Source of the DNA: Saccharopolyspora gregorii
GTDB lineage: Bacteria; Actinomycetota; Actinomycetes; Mycobacteriales; Pseudonocardiaceae
Length of the DNA: 64,000 bases
Assembly (NCBI RefSeq): GCF_024734405.1
Contig: NZ_CP059556.1
Location: 1,488,001 to 1,552,000 of the forward strand
Reading direction: 5' to 3'
Part shown: piece by piece, positions 23,606 through 29,709 of the stretch
Numbering within the stretch: the stretch's first letter is position 1
Layout of the letters: each line of letters begins with the position of its first letter
The notes under the pieces: generated by a model
The model's database searches: none
The model's input: only the letters and a program-made list of their open reading frames with translations
Told to the model about the DNA's origin: nothing
Program-made: the position numbers and the translations under genes

Positions 23606-24178
23606 AGCGTCCGGTCCACCCGCGGTACCTGCTTCCGGGTGATCGTCGCCCGCCGACGTTGAATTCCGCAGGTCCGAACCGCGTGGATCTCACGGTTTGG
23701 GCGCTTAGTTGACATCGCGTACAGTTGCGCCGCATGATCTAGCGCATGTCCAGGTTCGCCTCTCTGGTGGTCCGCTTGCACGTGGATTTGCAGCACCAGT
23801 CCAGCGCCCTCTGTAGTAGTCGCTGATCGGCCGCCGCGCCCGCGCGAAGAAATCGCGAATGGCGTGTTCTGCGAACGTGTCGACTCAGCAGCAGGCCCGC
23901 TGAGCAGCGGTTCCAGTCGTCGCTGGTGGTTCGTGCCCGGCCGGGGTGACAGCCCTCGGGGTTGAAGAATTCCCCCGAAAACCATTCCTCCCCAACCGCG
24001 GGCGATGCCGCCTGCCTCACTCCGGTGAATTCCGGAGACCAGGTGTGCCCTGAATCGGTTTCGGTCCGAATTCGGCAAACCGATTTTGGGGACACGTGTG
24101 TCCGAATCCACAACCACCCGTCCGAGAAGAAACGGTTGCCGAGACCTTGGTGGAACCGAGATGGAGACCGGAGAGAAG
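23606..24178. promoter_or_regulatory. 573-nt gene-free region upstream of the SBP56-like gene
   Basis: No convincing gene on either strand; the base composition is less biased than in neighbours. TTGACA at about 23708 is a good -35 hexamer but has only weak -10 partners 17-19 nt downstream. The 3' part holds a dense group of inverted repeats, listed separately. A leftward open frame (23739-24200) ends in a basic, Cys-containing stretch without recognisable family features. Confidence 0.45.
24020..24103 (+). promoter_or_regulatory. Nested palindromes, probable operators of the sulfur/copper cluster
   Basis: Four dyads lie within 84 nt, 75 to 160 nt upstream of the exported protein's start. 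They are CTCCGG-6-CCGGAG (24020-24037); AATCGGTTT (24053-24061) paired with AAACCGATT (24077-24085); the palindrome CCGAATTCGG inside that pair (24066-24075); and GGACAC-GT-GTGTCC (24090-24103). The spacing suits a dimeric regulator or a structured leader. No matching regulator gene is adjacent. Confidence 0.5.
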
Positions 24179-26011
24179 ATGAGAACCCCCTCGCGCGCAT
24201 GGCGGAAAGGACTGACCGGAGCGGCCGCCGCGCTGCTCGCGGTCGGCGCCGTCACGCTGCCCGTCGGCGGCACCGACGCCTACGCCGACGTGCAGGTCAC
24301 CACGCAGCAGGTGCCCGGAGCCGACGGCAAGAACTACACCGTCACCAACCACGTCGTCAGCAAGACCGCCACGAAGGCCGCCGATGGCAAGCGCAAGGAA
24401 TGGCTGCTGGTGTGGGCCGGTGACGAGAACATCGCCGACACCGCGGTCAAGGACGTCAAGGGCCTGCCCGGGTCGCTCGGCGACGGCCTCGGCAAGGTGC
24501 GGGACGCCCTGCCCGGACCGGACTTCCTCGCCGTCATCGACGCCACCAAGGGCTCCGAGACCTACGGCGAAGTCGTCAACACCGCCACCGTCGGCCCGCT
24601 GGTGGAGAACGAGCCGCACCACATGCAGTACGTGTGGCACAAGGGCGACACCATCTTCGCCGGTGCGCTGTTCCTCGGCGCCACCTACGCGTTCGACGTC
24701 ACGAAGCTGCCGAACCTGGAGCTCAAGGGCGTCAGCCTGCCGACCCAGACCCTCGGCGGATCCGTCCCCGACGCGTACTGGACGCTGTCCGACGGCACCT
24801 CCTACGGGACCTACATGGGCGGTCCCGTCGTCCCCGGCCCGTACCGGTACGACGACGGATCCGTGCACGTCGGCAACGGGTTCGCGGGCAGCCCCGGCGA
24901 GGTCGTCCGGTTCGACCCGAACGGCAAGGTGCTGTCCCAATCGCCCGCGGCGACCCCGCAGGGCGACAACCCGAAGCTGTGCGACAACCTGCCGCAGCTC
25001 GGCAAGCCCACCTGCGCCAACCCGCACGGCATCCAGGCCCGCGAGGACCTGAACACGCTGATCACCAGTGACTACGCGGAACCGCGCAACATCATCCTGG
25101 ACCCGGTCAAGCAGCCCTCGCCGTACCTGCGGCGGCCGACCGTGCGCACCTGGGACATCTCCGACCGCAACCACCCCAAGCTGCGGGCCGTGTCCTACCT
25201 GCCGGACGGGCCGCGCGCCGACCCGGCGGACCCGCTGCACTCCGAGAGCCGCGCCGTGATGGAGACGACCGTCACCAACCTGCCCGGCCACAAGGGGGCG
25301 TTCGCCGAGACCATGCAGGGCGGTGCGGTGTTCTACACGCCGGACATCACCGCACCCGCGCCGCGCTGGACGCAGGTCTTCGACGACGGGCAGGCGCTCA
25401 AGGCCATCGACCCCGCCAACAACGACGCCCGCGGCGGCAGCTCCAACGGCGGCTGGATCCAGACCAGCCCCGACGACAGGTTCCTGTACCGCGCGGTGCA
25501 GGGGCGGCAGAAGGGCGCGCTCGGCCCCGACGACCCCGGCTCCACCGGCGGTGTCTACACCCTCGACATCTCCAAGATCGTCGCGGCCGGGAACGACTTC
25601 CAGTGCACCATCGACACCGTCGAGAAGGCCGAGAACGGCGGCGGGCAGGACTGCCCGACGCTGGCCGGCGCGGCACCCATCAACCCCGGTCAGCCGGGCG
25701 CGGGACCGCACTGGGGCGCCTACGACAACTTCACCGAAGGTGCCGACGGGCGGTACGAGGAGACCAAGCAGCCCAGCAGGCTCGCGGTGTCCAACTACTT
25801 CGTCGCCCGCTCCGGGCTCGACGGCGACCACAAGGTCAACATGGTCGACCTCGCACCCGACGGGAAGGTCAGCGTCGACGAGTCCTTCAAGGACGAGGTG
25901 ACCGGGGAAACCGGGATCAACTTCAACCGGGAACGCTGGCCGCACGGGCCGTTCGGCAACGCGAAACCGCACTCCGAACTGTTCGTCGTCGCCGACGAAG
26001 ACCTGAAGTGA
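24179..26011 (+). CDS. Exported SBP56 (selenium-binding protein/methanethiol oxidase-like) protein
   Basis: A 610-residue protein with an N-terminal signal peptide (RAWRKGLTGAAAALLAVGAV, cleavage after DAYA). The mature part resembles the SBP56/SELENBP1 beta-propeller family: HHMQYVWHKGDTIFAGALF, CANPHGIQAREDLNTLITSDYAEPRN, then GGWIQTSPDDRFLYRAVQG. Characterised members are copper-dependent methanethiol oxidases that yield H2S, formaldehyde and H2O2; methanethiol as substrate here is inference. I chose the ATG at 24179 with GGAGAG upstream. A CopD-like protein and a YeeE-type transporter follow, fitting extracytoplasmic sulfur and copper chemistry. Confidence 0.7.
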   Translation: MRTPSRAWRKGLTGAAAALLAVGAVTLPVGGTDAYADVQVTTQQVPGADGKNYTVTNHVVSKTATKAADGKRKEWLLVWAGDENIADTAVKDVKGLPGSLGDGLGKVRDALPGPDFLAVIDATKGSETYGEVVNTATVGPLVENEPHHMQYVWHKGDTIFAGALFLGATYAFDVTKLPNLELKGVSLPTQTLGGSVPDAYWTLSDGTSYGTYMGGPVVPGPYRYDDGSVHVGNGFAGSPGEVVRFDPNGKVLSQSPAATPQGDNPKLCDNLPQLGKPTCANPHGIQAREDLNTLITSDYAEPRNIILDPVKQPSPYLRRPTVRTWDISDRNHPKLRAVSYLPDGPRADPADPLHSESRAVMETTVTNLPGHKGAFAETMQGGAVFYTPDITAPAPRWTQVFDDGQALKAIDPANNDARGGSSNGGWIQTSPDDRFLYRAVQGRQKGALGPDDPGSTGGVYTLDISKIVAAGNDFQCTIDTVEKAENGGGQDCPTLAGAAPINPGQPGAGPHWGAYDNFTEGADGRYEETKQPSRLAVSNYFVARSGLDGDHKVNMVDLAPDGKVSVDESFKDEVTGETGINFNRERWPHGPFGNAKPHSELFVVADEDLK

Positions 26012-26102
26012 CCACCGCCGCCGGGCGGATCCCCCCGGACCCGCCCGGCGGCCCTCCCGGGTTCCCGGAACCCTCCCGCACCCGTTCGGAACGAGGAACA
26101 CG

Positions 26103-27854
26103 ATGGACATGAGCGGTATGCACGCCGGCACCGGAGTGACCGGAGTGGACGCCGCGGGGCTCGTGCTGCGGGTGCTGCTGCTCGGCGGCACCGTCGTCGC
26201 CGCCGGGCTCGGGCTGCTGCGCCCCGCCGTGCGCGGCACCGGCCGCGCCACCACCTGGACCGCGTGGGCCGCCGCCGGGGTGGGCGCGGTCGCCGCGCTG
26301 CTGTCGATCCCGCTGCTCGACATCAACGTCCCCGTCGCCGTCGTGCACGCGGTGCTGCTGCTGGCGCTGCCGGTCGCGCTGCGCGCGCCCACGCCCGCCG
26401 CCTACCTCGGATTCGCGCTCACCGCGCTCGTCGTCGTGGAGAGCGCGCTCGGGCACTCGCCCGCGGAATTCCTCGTCACCACCCTCGTCACCGCCACTGC
26501 CGTCACCTGGCTCGGGCTCTCCGGGTTCGCGCTCACCCTGCCCGCCGAGCGGCGCCCCGAAGGCGGACTGCGGCTGCGGCCGCTGGCGATCGTGCTCGCC
26601 GTGGTGCTGCTCGCGGCCGCCGCGGCGCAACTCCTGCTCACCGGCATCGCCGACCGGCGGCTGCTCGGCGCGCTCGGCGCCGTGCTGCTGCTGATCACGG
26701 CGTCCGCGATCGCCGCCGGCATCGTCGTGGTGCTGCTGCGCCGCGGCGACCCGTGGCGGACCTACCGGATCGGGGCCGTCGCCGTCGCCGTCGCCTTCGT
26801 CGCCTGGACCGTGCTGCCCGGCATCCCGGCGCCCGGGGAACTCCCGCTGCCGGGAGTGCCGCGACTCGCGCACGCCGCCGTCGGCGACCAGGACGTGCCG
26901 GTGCTCGTCACCCCGCACCGGCCCGGCAAGAACCTCGTGCACCTGCCGGAGAGCGCGGGCGACGAGTTCACCGTCGACGCGGGCGGCGGCCCGGTGCGCG
27001 CCGTGGCGCGCCCTGGCACCTCCGGCACCTGGGCCGAAGTGGACCTGCCCGCCGGGCGCGGCGAACTGGAGGTCCACGGCCCCGGTGCCACCACCGGTGA
27101 CGTCGAAGTCGACACCGGCAGCGGCCCCGGGCTGCCTGCCGCCACCTCCGGCGACGGGCCGGAATGCGCCAGCACCGCGCTCGCCGCCCTCGTCGCCGGG
27201 CAGCGCGTCCCGCTCGACGGGTGCCCCGCCGACTCGCTGTCCGAGCAGGACGCCGCCGCGCTGCGCACCCTCGTCGGCTACGTCCAGCGCAACGGGGCGC
27301 CCGGCATCACCGTCCTCGGCGACGACTCGCCCCGATCCCGCGCCGCCGCCGACGTCGTCCGCGACGCCGCCCGGCAAGCCCGGATCCCCGTCGGCGACCG
27401 CCCGGCCCCCGACAACGCGCTCATCCTCGTCGGCAGCTGGACCGACGCGGCCCGGCGGCTCGACACCGTCGCCGCGACCCAGCACACCGCGCCCACCTAC
27501 GCCTACGGCGTGCACCTCGCGCCCTGGCTGCTGCACAGCCCCGTCACCACCGGCATCGCCAGCTCCGCGGTGCCGCTGCGCTTCGACCCCCGCGAATACC
27601 GCTCGCTGGAATACGGCATGGCGCTGTCCACGTCGTTCGGTGGCGAACCGCCGTCCGTCGCCGGATTCCACACCTGGCTCGCCGCCCGCGGGCAACGCGC
27701 GCACGACCCCGTCGTGATCTACGCCTCCGCCCAGGTCGACGCGATGCAGATGGACATGCCCGGCATGCGTGGCGGAATGCACGGTTCCGAACCCGCCGGT
27801 CAGTGGGTTCCGCATGGCACCGTGGTCGCGGTCTCCGGGCCGCTGGCCCCCTGA
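26103..27854 (+). CDS. Polytopic membrane protein, CopD-like, with Met-rich ends
   Basis: A 583-residue protein. It opens with MDMSGMHAG, then about seven or eight transmembrane helices to residue 240 or so, then a large extracytoplasmic part. That part contains VPVLVTPHRPGKNLVHL, like the CopC/YtkA-type domain of CopD fusions, and DGPECASTALAALVAGQ. The C-terminal third resembles no family I recognise. Near the end is MQMDMPGMRGGMHG, a His/Met cluster typical of periplasmic copper sites. A role in copper delivery to the preceding SBP56-like protein is inferred. The order is operon-like, with a 91-nt gap. Confidence 0.6.
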   Translation: MDMSGMHAGTGVTGVDAAGLVLRVLLLGGTVVAAGLGLLRPAVRGTGRATTWTAWAAAGVGAVAALLSIPLLDINVPVAVVHAVLLLALPVALRAPTPAAYLGFALTALVVVESALGHSPAEFLVTTLVTATAVTWLGLSGFALTLPAERRPEGGLRLRPLAIVLAVVLLAAAAAQLLLTGIADRRLLGALGAVLLLITASAIAAGIVVVLLRRGDPWRTYRIGAVAVAVAFVAWTVLPGIPAPGELPLPGVPRLAHAAVGDQDVPVLVTPHRPGKNLVHLPESAGDEFTVDAGGGPVRAVARPGTSGTWAEVDLPAGRGELEVHGPGATTGDVEVDTGSGPGLPAATSGDGPECASTALAALVAGQRVPLDGCPADSLSEQDAAALRTLVGYVQRNGAPGITVLGDDSPRSRAAADVVRDAARQARIPVGDRPAPDNALILVGSWTDAARRLDTVAATQHTAPTYAYGVHLAPWLLHSPVTTGIASSAVPLRFDPREYRSLEYGMALSTSFGGEPPSVAGFHTWLAARGQRAHDPVVIYASAQVDAMQMDMPGMRGGMHGSEPAGQWVPHGTVVAVSGPLAP

Positions 27855-27889
27855 TACCGCCACCGCCCCCCGAAACGAGGAGCAACGAC

Positions 27890-29137
27890 ATGTCCGCAGT
27901 GGACACCGCTGAAGCACCCAGAACACCGGCGCCACCCGCGCCGCAGGCACCACCCGCACGCCCCGGCGTCGTCACCATCGGCATCCTGCTCGCCGCCGTC
28001 GTCGGCCTCGCCGTCGCCAGCGCGGCCGGCTGGAAGCTCGCCGTGCTCTACGTCGTCGGCCTCGCGCTCGGTGGCGTGCTGTTCCACTCCCGGTTCGGGT
28101 TCACCTCCGCCTGGCGGCAGCTCGTCGCCGTCGGGCAAGGGCGTGCACTGCGCGCGCACATGCTGATGCTGGCCGTAGCGTGCGTGCTGTTCGCCGTCAT
28201 CCTCGGCACCGGCGCCGGGCTCTCCGGCACCCCGGAAGGGACCGTGGCGCCCGCCGGGCTGGGCGTGGTCCTCGGCTCGTTCCTGTTCGGCGTCGGCATG
28301 CAGGTCGGCGGCTCCTGCGCCTCCGGCACCCTGTTCGCCGTCGGCAGCGGGCAGACCGCGATCCTCTACACCCTCGGCGGGTTCATCGCCGGGTCCGTGC
28401 TCAGCGCCTTCCTCACCCCGTGGATCAGCGCGTTGCAGGAGACCGGGCCGACCGTGTCCTTCGCGGACACCCCGCTCGGCTACCCGGGGGCGTTGCTGAT
28501 CTCGCTGCTCATCATCGGTGCGGTCGTGGGCGTCTCGCTGCTCGTCGAACGTCGCCGCACCCCGCCGCCGATCGAAGCGCCGCCCACCGCGCAGGGCCTG
28601 CTGCGCGTGCTGCGCGGCTCGTGGCCGCTGTGGGCCGGCGCGCTGCTGCTCGCCGGGCTGAACGCGCTGACCCTGTTCATCTCCGGGGGACCGTGGGGCA
28701 TCACGTCCGCGTTCGGCCTGTGGGGCGCGAAGTTCCTCGGCTGGATCGGCGTCGACATCTCCGGTGCGCCGTTCTGGACGGTGCCGGAGAACGCCGCGAA
28801 GCTGGACGCGTCCGTGCTCGCCGACAAGATCTCGGTGATGGACTTCGGCATCATGATCGGCGCCCTGGTGGCCTCCGCCGCGGCCGGCGCGTTCGTGCTG
28901 CACCGCCGCATCCCGTGGCGGCTCGCCGTCGGCGCCGTGCTCGGCGGGATCCTGATGGGACTCGGGGCTCGGCTCGCCGGTGGCTGCAACATCGGCGCCT
29001 ACTTCTCCGGCATCGCCTCGTTCAGCCTGCACGGCTGGCTGTGGGGCGTCGTCGCCATCATCGGGACCTACGCGGGACTGCTGCTGCGGCCGTTGTTCGG
29101 GCTGGGCAATCCGAAGCCCACCGACTCGGTCTGCTGA
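27890..29137 (+). CDS. YeeE/YedE (TsuA-type) sulfur-compound transporter
   Basis: A 415-residue inner-membrane protein with about 9-10 helices in two repeats. Each repeat carries a conserved Cys motif: GVGMQVGGSCASGTLFAVGSG in the first half and GLGARLAGGCNIGAYFSG in the second. In TsuA (YeeE) such Cys residues pass thiosulfate through the membrane; YedE relatives are linked to selenium. The N-terminus is a Pro-rich tail. The ATG at 27890 follows CGAGGAG. Context with an SBP56-like protein supports uptake of a sulfur species, but the exact substrate is not determined. Confidence 0.83.
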   Translation: MSAVDTAEAPRTPAPPAPQAPPARPGVVTIGILLAAVVGLAVASAAGWKLAVLYVVGLALGGVLFHSRFGFTSAWRQLVAVGQGRALRAHMLMLAVACVLFAVILGTGAGLSGTPEGTVAPAGLGVVLGSFLFGVGMQVGGSCASGTLFAVGSGQTAILYTLGGFIAGSVLSAFLTPWISALQETGPTVSFADTPLGYPGALLISLLIIGAVVGVSLLVERRRTPPPIEAPPTAQGLLRVLRGSWPLWAGALLLAGLNALTLFISGGPWGITSAFGLWGAKFLGWIGVDISGAPFWTVPENAAKLDASVLADKISVMDFGIMIGALVASAAAGAFVLHRRIPWRLAVGAVLGGILMGLGARLAGGCNIGAYFSGIASFSLHGWLWGVVAIIGTYAGLLLRPLFGLGNPKPTDSVC

Positions 29138-29221
29138 ACCGCCCGCGCGGTGGCGAGCCGCCGTGGGGCGTCCGACTTCCCGCCGGTTCGGGCGGGATGG
29201 AGAGAAACGAGGAGAAGCACC

Positions 29222-29425
29222 ATGTCGAAGAGCCTCGCCAGGCTGACGGCCGCGACCGTCACCAGCCTCGCCCTGCTCGGGCTCGGCGCCGGAGTGGCGC
29301 AGGCCGACCCGCCGTCGATCTGGGTCATCCCCGGTGTCGACGCGGGCGGGCTGCTGAGCCCCACCGTCGGCCTGCCCACCGCCGCGCTCAACCCCGTCGT
29401 CGGCCTGCTCGACGCCCTCAGCTGA
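29222..29425 (+). CDS. Tiny exported hydrophobic peptide
   Basis: A 67-residue product with a signal peptide (SLARLTAATVTSLALLGLG, predicted cut after AQA). The mature peptide is about 39 residues, uncharged except for two Asp, and rich in Pro, Gly, Leu and Val (PSIWVIPGVDAGGLLSPTVG). It ends VGLLDALS. A strong GAGGAG ribosome site precedes the ATG. It resembles the next gene's product in layout and in the LLDAL/LLDSL tail. No known family is recognised. Confidence 0.65.
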   Translation: MSKSLARLTAATVTSLALLGLGAGVAQADPPSIWVIPGVDAGGLLSPTVGLPTAALNPVVGLLDALS

Positions 29426-29463
29426 CCCACCGCCAGCTGCCCGATCGGAGAGGAACACCGCTG

Positions 29464-29709
29464 ATGAACACCGCTGTGCGCCGCGGCCTGGCCGCCACCG
29501 CGCTCGCCGGGACCGCCCTGCTCGGTTCCGCCACCGCCGCCATCGCCGCACCGCAGGCCGCCCCCGACCCGGGCGGCGTCGTCATCGTCGACGAGCCCGA
29601 CACCGGCGACCTGAACAACATCTGGACGTTCGCGCCGCTGGGCGTTCCGGTGCTGGGCCTGCTCGATTCGCTCGCCGACGTGCCCGGGAAGCTCCTGCCG
29701 CTGCCCTGA
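29464..29709 (+). CDS. Tiny exported peptide, related to the preceding one
   Basis: An 81-residue product with signal peptide RGLAATALAGTALLGSATAAIA, cut near AIAAPQA. The mature peptide of about 51 residues has VVIVDEPDTGDLNNIWTFAP followed by LGVPVLGLLDSLADVPGKLL. The ATG follows GGAGAGG. Spacing of 38 nt from the previous gene suggests one transcript with the YeeE-type transporter. The function is unknown; surface, cell-wall or signalling roles are possible. Confidence 0.65.
   Translation: MNTAVRRGLAATALAGTALLGSATAAIAAPQAAPDPGGVVIVDEPDTGDLNNIWTFAPLGVPVLGLLDSLADVPGKLLPLP

Follow-up and report, generated by a model that had tools for sequence, protein, structure and literature searches.

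A putative sulfur-scavenging operon with an exported SBP56-fold protein and a cysteine leader in Saccharopolyspora gregorii and related actinomycetes

The stretch of DNA analysed here, which we call the window, comprises 64,000 nucleotides from the 6.34 Mb genome of the actinomycete Saccharopolyspora gregorii (contig NZ_CP059556.1, positions 1,488,001 to 1,552,000), and it contains a cluster of five genes, designated g1 to g5, that we read with somewhat better than even confidence as an operon for sulfur scavenging found in Pseudonocardiaceae and in some further actinomycetes. According to this reading, the operon is under the control of a cysteine leader, g1 (an exported protein of the SBP56 fold) would perform copper-dependent thiol chemistry outside the membrane, g2 would load g1 with metal, and g3 would import what is made. 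The predicted role in sulfur supply is strongly supported, above all by the leader, which the cluster has in common with sulfur-assimilation genes. An initial annotation of the window had proposed five co-directional genes, and all five reading frames are indeed open, on the same strand and at the positions given for them. The promoter and leader (23709-23826) lie outside the coordinates which that annotation covered.

A cysteine leader in front of the cluster

The 570 bp 5' of g1 hold a consensus-like promoter of the sigma-70 type (TTGACA-18-CATGAT, 23709..23738, plus strand; one such pattern found against 0.2 expected) and, eight bases on, the ATG of a 26-codon open reading frame (ORF), MSRFASLVVRLHVDLQHQSSALCSSR (23746..23826, plus strand), which is of the cysteine-attenuation leader type. 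When 84,980 species genomes were scanned, 80 g1 loci were obtained, part of which end at contig edges, so that counts of neighbours among them are lower bounds. The motif R-x-H-V-D-L-x4-S-x-L-C was found 5' of g1 in 52 of these 80 loci, with no occurrence on the opposite strand and an expectation of 0.0 from shuffled sequence, and in most loci a TTGACA stands at a similar distance 5' of the leader; transcription probably starts at or adjoining the leader ATG, which would make the message leaderless. Variability across the leader is 0.08, 0.10 and 0.30 at the first, second and third codon positions, and since the third positions vary most, by about threefold, the leader peptide is under selection. 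Of 38 distinct sequences, 37 use TGT for the cysteine. Against the NCBIfam model NF042934, a putative attenuation leader, the window peptide scores 20.8 bits (E = 2e-4; cut-off 27), and orthologous leaders score 35.7, 35.5 and 27.2 bits. We also noted that the leaders in loci L045, L086, L026 and L076 stop at the position of the cysteine codon (SSAL or ASSL, then a stop), with the remainder kept.

What ties the cluster to sulfur metabolism is the company this leader keeps. The motif occurs seven times in the source genome (none for a reversed-pattern control), and the six sites other than that of the cluster (G000:C1 1290373, 2336440, 3345558, 3489353, 5052920 and 6158261; loci L166-L171) precede a sulfite reductase with CysH, two alkanesulfonate-type monooxygenases, an NtaA/DmoA monooxygenase with an NMT1-like binding protein, an MsnO8-family monooxygenase and a cysteine dioxygenase. 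All six have a sulfur-related gene downstream, the monooxygenases being of the LLM family (organosulfur type), and together they are a list of members of a cysteine-leader regulon. The leader was absent near 30 canonical SBP56 loci and absent 5' of 18 solitary g3 genes. In mycobacteria, such leaders are reported to be cysteine-responsive attenuators (Canestrari 2020, as cited in PMC9094748), and comparable leaders have been predicted 5' of cys operons that have no clear terminators (PMC1262725).

Other candidates for regulatory elements were set aside. An Rfam scan for a riboswitch in the operon gave no match near threshold, and no tRNA gene was found that could explain the element conserved upstream of g1, which is the small ORF itself. 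The region from the leader to g1 (23827..24178, plus strand) also holds an inverted repeat, GGACACGTGTGTCC (GGACAC..GTGTCC, at ~24090-24103, about 80 bases before g1). It is a possible site for a second regulator, and we rejected it as the operator of the operon because it is kept in the closest species only.

The gene set and its products

The 80 loci come from Saccharopolyspora, Amycolatopsis, Kutzneria, Actinokineospora, Prauserella, Lentzea, Saccharothrix, Pseudonocardia, Nocardioides, Actinomadura, Streptomyces and other genera. In 77 of them g2 lies downstream of g1 on the same strand; g4 is present in 62, g5 in 63 (55 on the same strand), and g3 lies within 5.5 kb of g1 in 35. Among 120 related genomes, for which the Fisher p-values given here ignore phylogeny and common ancestry, 29 carry g1, 34 carry g2 and 28 carry both (p = 2e-20), and g3 orthologues at ~52% identity or more are found in 25 of the 29 g1-bearing genomes (p = 5e-12). 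Strong matches to g4 and g5 (E < 1e-18) occur in 20 genomes, all of which have g1, and all adjoin it. Recurrence of the genes as a conserved unit is therefore far above chance. The flanking genes differ between genera: they are dapB and an AlkZ-like gene in Saccharopolyspora and, in Amycolatopsis, what we take from our own reading of the sequences to be ribosomal-protein and RNA polymerase genes. The cluster thus travels as a whole: g1 and g2 form its core, g4 and g5 accompany this core within Pseudonocardiaceae, and g3 need not lie at this place. A search of the surroundings across genera found no recurrent neighbour outside the cluster, nor did we find conserved neighbours of the solitary g3 genes.

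Some individual loci depart from this pattern. At L022:6417-6674, a g3 fragment (residues 68-125 only) sits beside g1 and a full-length copy is found elsewhere in the genome, an apparent case of decay and relocation of the transporter. One genome has two tandem g1-like genes (G061:C10:15858-19353), and six large Streptomyces plasmids (NZ_CP024986.1, NZ_CP108984.1 and four more) encode g1 homologues of 48-51% identity that are annotated only as hypothetical proteins.

The product of g1 (24179..26011, plus strand; 610 aa) is a remote SBP56 homologue that lies outside the curated limits of the family. It scores 15.8 bits against Pfam SBP56 (PF05694; cut-off 34) and 19.2 bits against the NCBIfam MtoX model, far below the cut-off of 650, and these weak matches are confined to residues 112-178; the SBP56 match was seen in all 48 relatives scanned, the best at 1.9e-6. 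The fold is clearer. When the AlphaFold model (pLDDT 82) was compared with 350,542 chains using Foldseek, the Sulfolobus SBP56 structure 2ECE came first (E = 9.4e-15, TM 0.69 by target), and other matches included lactonases, further propellers and the copper-containing propeller enzyme nitrous oxide reductase. The g1 family profile and a profile built from 42 canonical SBP56 proteins aligned colinearly (probability 94%; E = 1.3e-7, as a single comparison). Given a signal-like N-terminal segment in 78 of 80 homologues, g1 is probably exported by a Sec-type signal. The initial annotation had spoken of an exported form; the export stands but is not unusual, as the known MtoX is periplasmic (PMC5739008). 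In some genomes g1 coexists with a separate canonical SBP56 protein.

The copper site of MtoX is formed by His89, His90, His140 and His412 (PMC5739008), and that of SELENBP1 by His73, His74, His137, His140, Asp189 and Glu252 (PMC10362175). The histidine pair His147-His148 of g1, equivalent to His89/90 of the methanethiol oxidase, is invariant in a 48-row alignment, and Glu362 and the C-terminal His598, the likely counterparts of SELENBP1 Glu252 and of His412 in the methanethiol oxidase, are retained in the family. Other positions differ: in 50 of 51 family members Asp198 occupies the position of SELENBP1 His137, and in 50 of 51 His283 occupies the probable position of Asp189. These assignments come from a sequence alignment in which a single gap close to His283 was set manually. 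Asp and His appear to have traded places between adjacent blades, which looks like compensation. On the conserved copper histidines, to which the initial annotation had tied its case, the outcome is therefore divided, with the HH pair, the Glu and the C-terminal His kept and the HxxH motif (His137/His140 in SELENBP1, His140 in MtoX) gone.

Remote homologues offer a further view of g1. At locus L195, which belongs to a different lineage of the phylum, a gene matching the PpoB2 copper-chaperone family (E = 6e-51) precedes a g1-like gene by 223 bp on the same strand. This is a hint of copper, albeit an indirect one because the g1-like homologue has neither Asp198 nor His283. Further upstream in the same locus (L195:4685-8248), on the opposite strand, is a small Cys-rich ORF (CTACADACIAE) with no Pfam match that looks like a copper-storage-type protein. 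The remote homologues at L193 and L194 are without g2 and g3, and one of them has a cysteine dioxygenase gene within ~4 kb.

The g2 protein (26103..27854, plus strand), a candidate metal-loading partner of g1, belongs to DUF6239 (Pfam, 37.2 bits; cut-off 27.1). Its model (pLDDT 91) has a helical membrane part, an external beta-sandwich and an alpha/beta lobe of the type-I binding-protein kind; in Foldseek this modelled lobe partly resembles a binding protein for branched-chain amino acids, though with a best E of 4e-3 the resemblance is only a lead. Methionine and histidine make up 13.1% of the C-terminal tail (e.g. MQMDMPGMRGGMHG) versus 1.5% elsewhere, at least four such residues are found in the tail in 62 of 77 cases, and the N-terminus is likewise enriched, all of which fits extracellular metal delivery to a Sec-type exported protein. 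Of the earlier description of g2 as a Met-rich, CopD-like membrane protein, the Met/His-rich membrane protein survives and the CopD label does not fare well: Pfam CopD gave no match for g2, and one relative reached 25.2 bits (cut-off 32.1).

The remaining three genes bear out what was first said of them. With 225.7 bits against Sulf_transp (PF04143; cut-off 27), g3 (27890..29137, plus strand) is clearly a YeeE/YedE transporter, and it has two of the three transport cysteines: Cys143 and Cys366 align with Cys91 and Cys293 of TsuA, the two that are indispensable for transport (PMC11582611), and the position of TsuA Cys22 is an invariant glycine, Gly70. The C-terminal Cys415 (NPKPTDSVC), invariant in 16 aligned orthologues and at the expected cytoplasmic end, could stand in for the third cysteine, which g3 lacks, or for that of YeeD. 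The match to the TsuA equivalog, at 84.3 bits, is below its cut-off of 400. The two small exported peptides, g4 (29222..29425, plus strand; motif PIWxLPGVDLGxLLGPTxxLPT) and g5 (29464..29709, plus strand; motif VDEPDTSxLNNxWTFAPLGVPVxGLIQS), are genuine and conserved, and are perhaps dedicated exported partners of g1, as subunits or retention factors.

A proposed mechanism and its alternatives

We infer the involvement of copper, thiol oxidation, metal loading by g2, an imported product, the roles of g4 and g5, and attenuation by the leader. When cysteine is plentiful, the Cys-containing leader peptide would hold the operon down; when it is short, g1, as an SBP56-fold metalloprotein, would be exported unfolded by the general secretion route and loaded outside the membrane, most likely with copper, by the Met/His-rich external part of g2. 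The loaded g1, perhaps assisted by g4 and g5, would then oxidise a sulfur compound outside the cell, for which a thiol is our first candidate in view of the homology with Cu-dependent methanethiol oxidase, and the oxidation product would enter through the g3 channel. Methanethiol oxidase activity of g1 is putative. Sulfide, the product of known methanethiol oxidases, would have no clear need for g3, which counts against this scheme and suggests that the product may be some other sulfur species. The initial proposal of outside oxidation coupled to import gains from the leader as regards sulfur, whereas copper and methanethiol oxidation stay conjectural, with HxxH found in none of 51 family members.

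Several other observations also weigh against the scheme. The leader contains only one Cys codon, did not turn up in the loci of Actinomadura, Streptomyces or Nocardioides, and is separated from g1 by no intrinsic terminator that we could find. In about half of the loci g3 does not adjoin g1, and outgroup relatives of g2 keep the external domains with the membrane domain reduced or slight. The families assigned to genes of the cluster and to those next to it include neither SCO1/SenC nor MauG.

The most serious competitor, in our view unlikely but deserving of attention, is that g1 is an extracytoplasmic propeller enzyme that acts on an organosulfur compound by other chemistry, through another metal or as a lyase or hydrolase, with no Cu-dependent thiol oxidation. 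The metal site itself argues in this direction, since all 42 canonical SBP56 proteins carry the HxxH motif (PHTxHC) whereas the g1 family has lost it throughout, with Asp198 and His283 invariant in its place; so do the absence of MauG from the source genome and a fold common to lactonases and other propellers. Yet the HH pair, Glu and C-terminal His are retained, the g2 tail is rich in Met and His, a PpoB2 copper chaperone lies beside a remote homologue, and the structural matches include nitrous oxide reductase. Some of these same points, the Met/His clusters of g2 and the copper-chaperone neighbour at the distant locus, would suit an arrangement in which g1 and g2 are a copper binding or buffering pair, under the same control as sulfur genes since copper becomes more toxic when cysteine or thiol is scarce. 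We consider this quite improbable, as the leader is common to genes for sulfur acquisition, not copper, g3 belongs to a sulfur transporter family, and no neighbour outside the cluster recurs across genera. Least probable is selenium handling, with g3 as a YedE/FdhT-type transporter for selenium and g1 as a selenium-binding protein. The best NCBIfam match of g3 is selen_YedE_FdhT (E = 6e-43; 148 bits, cut-off 350) and the source genome has SelD, but genomes G020, G024 and G034 carry g1 without SelD above cut-off, on which ground an exclusive selenium role was rejected, and the leader peptide is one that the operon has in common with genes for sulfur; the selenium option allowed by the initial annotation has gained no positive support.

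Returning to sulfur scavenging with copper-dependent thiol chemistry, we put at slightly less than an even chance the broader claim that this is a new sulfur-acquisition system, consisting of a secreted oxidase of the SBP56 superfamily with a re-arranged metal site, g2 as a new metal-loading membrane protein, g4 and g5 as partners, a YeeE/YedE importer and control by a cysteine leader. SBP56 proteins occur in every domain of life, and which substrates they act on physiologically is still debated. A branch that is exported, has an altered metal site, comes with its own maturation partner and bears a sulfur-starvation tag would offer a tractable bacterial handle on those substrates. It would also widen the actinobacterial cysteine-leader regulon to extracytoplasmic chemistry, give the DUF6239, g4 and g5 families a testable context and, for soil sulfur cycling, suggest an outside-first route to thiol or organosulfur sulfur, for instance in Saccharopolyspora, Amycolatopsis and Kutzneria.

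Relation to known systems

A literature search that covered few subscription journals found no description of this cluster composition and no paper on DUF6239; no report was found in the literature of an operon of this type as a member of the cysteine-leader regulon. The nearest functional parallel is MtoX of Hyphomicrobium with SCO1/SenC and MauG (PMC5739008), which likewise combines an exported SBP56 fold, an HH pair and a C-terminal His with a neighbouring metal-supply gene (a role that g2 may fill here) and sulfur-related regulation. It differs from the cluster in that g1 reaches 19.2 of 650 bits and has no HxxH, and in that g2, g4, g5, a transporter and a Cys-leader are found where SCO1 and MauG are not. 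With SELENBP1 and canonical SBP56 (PF05694; 2ECE; PMC10362175), g1 has the propeller fold and a colinear profile alignment in common, but it is below the Pfam cut-off, is probably exported and is changed at the ligand residues 137, 140 and 189. Among transporters, g3 belongs to the family of TsuA/YeeE, SoxT and YedE (PF04143; PMC11073785, PMC11582611) and its equivalents of Cys91 and Cys293 are invariant, although Gly70 replaces Cys22, Cys415 is an invariant addition, and the cluster is without a YeeD/TusA partner. Finally, the actinobacterial Cys leaders (NF042934/NF042936; Canestrari 2020, as cited in PMC9094748; PMC1262725) contain a run of Cys codons where the leader of the cluster, a putative attenuator, has one, but they have in common with it the motif R-x-H-V-D-L...S-x-L-C, a promoter that starts transcription at the ATG, and a place 5' of sulfur genes.

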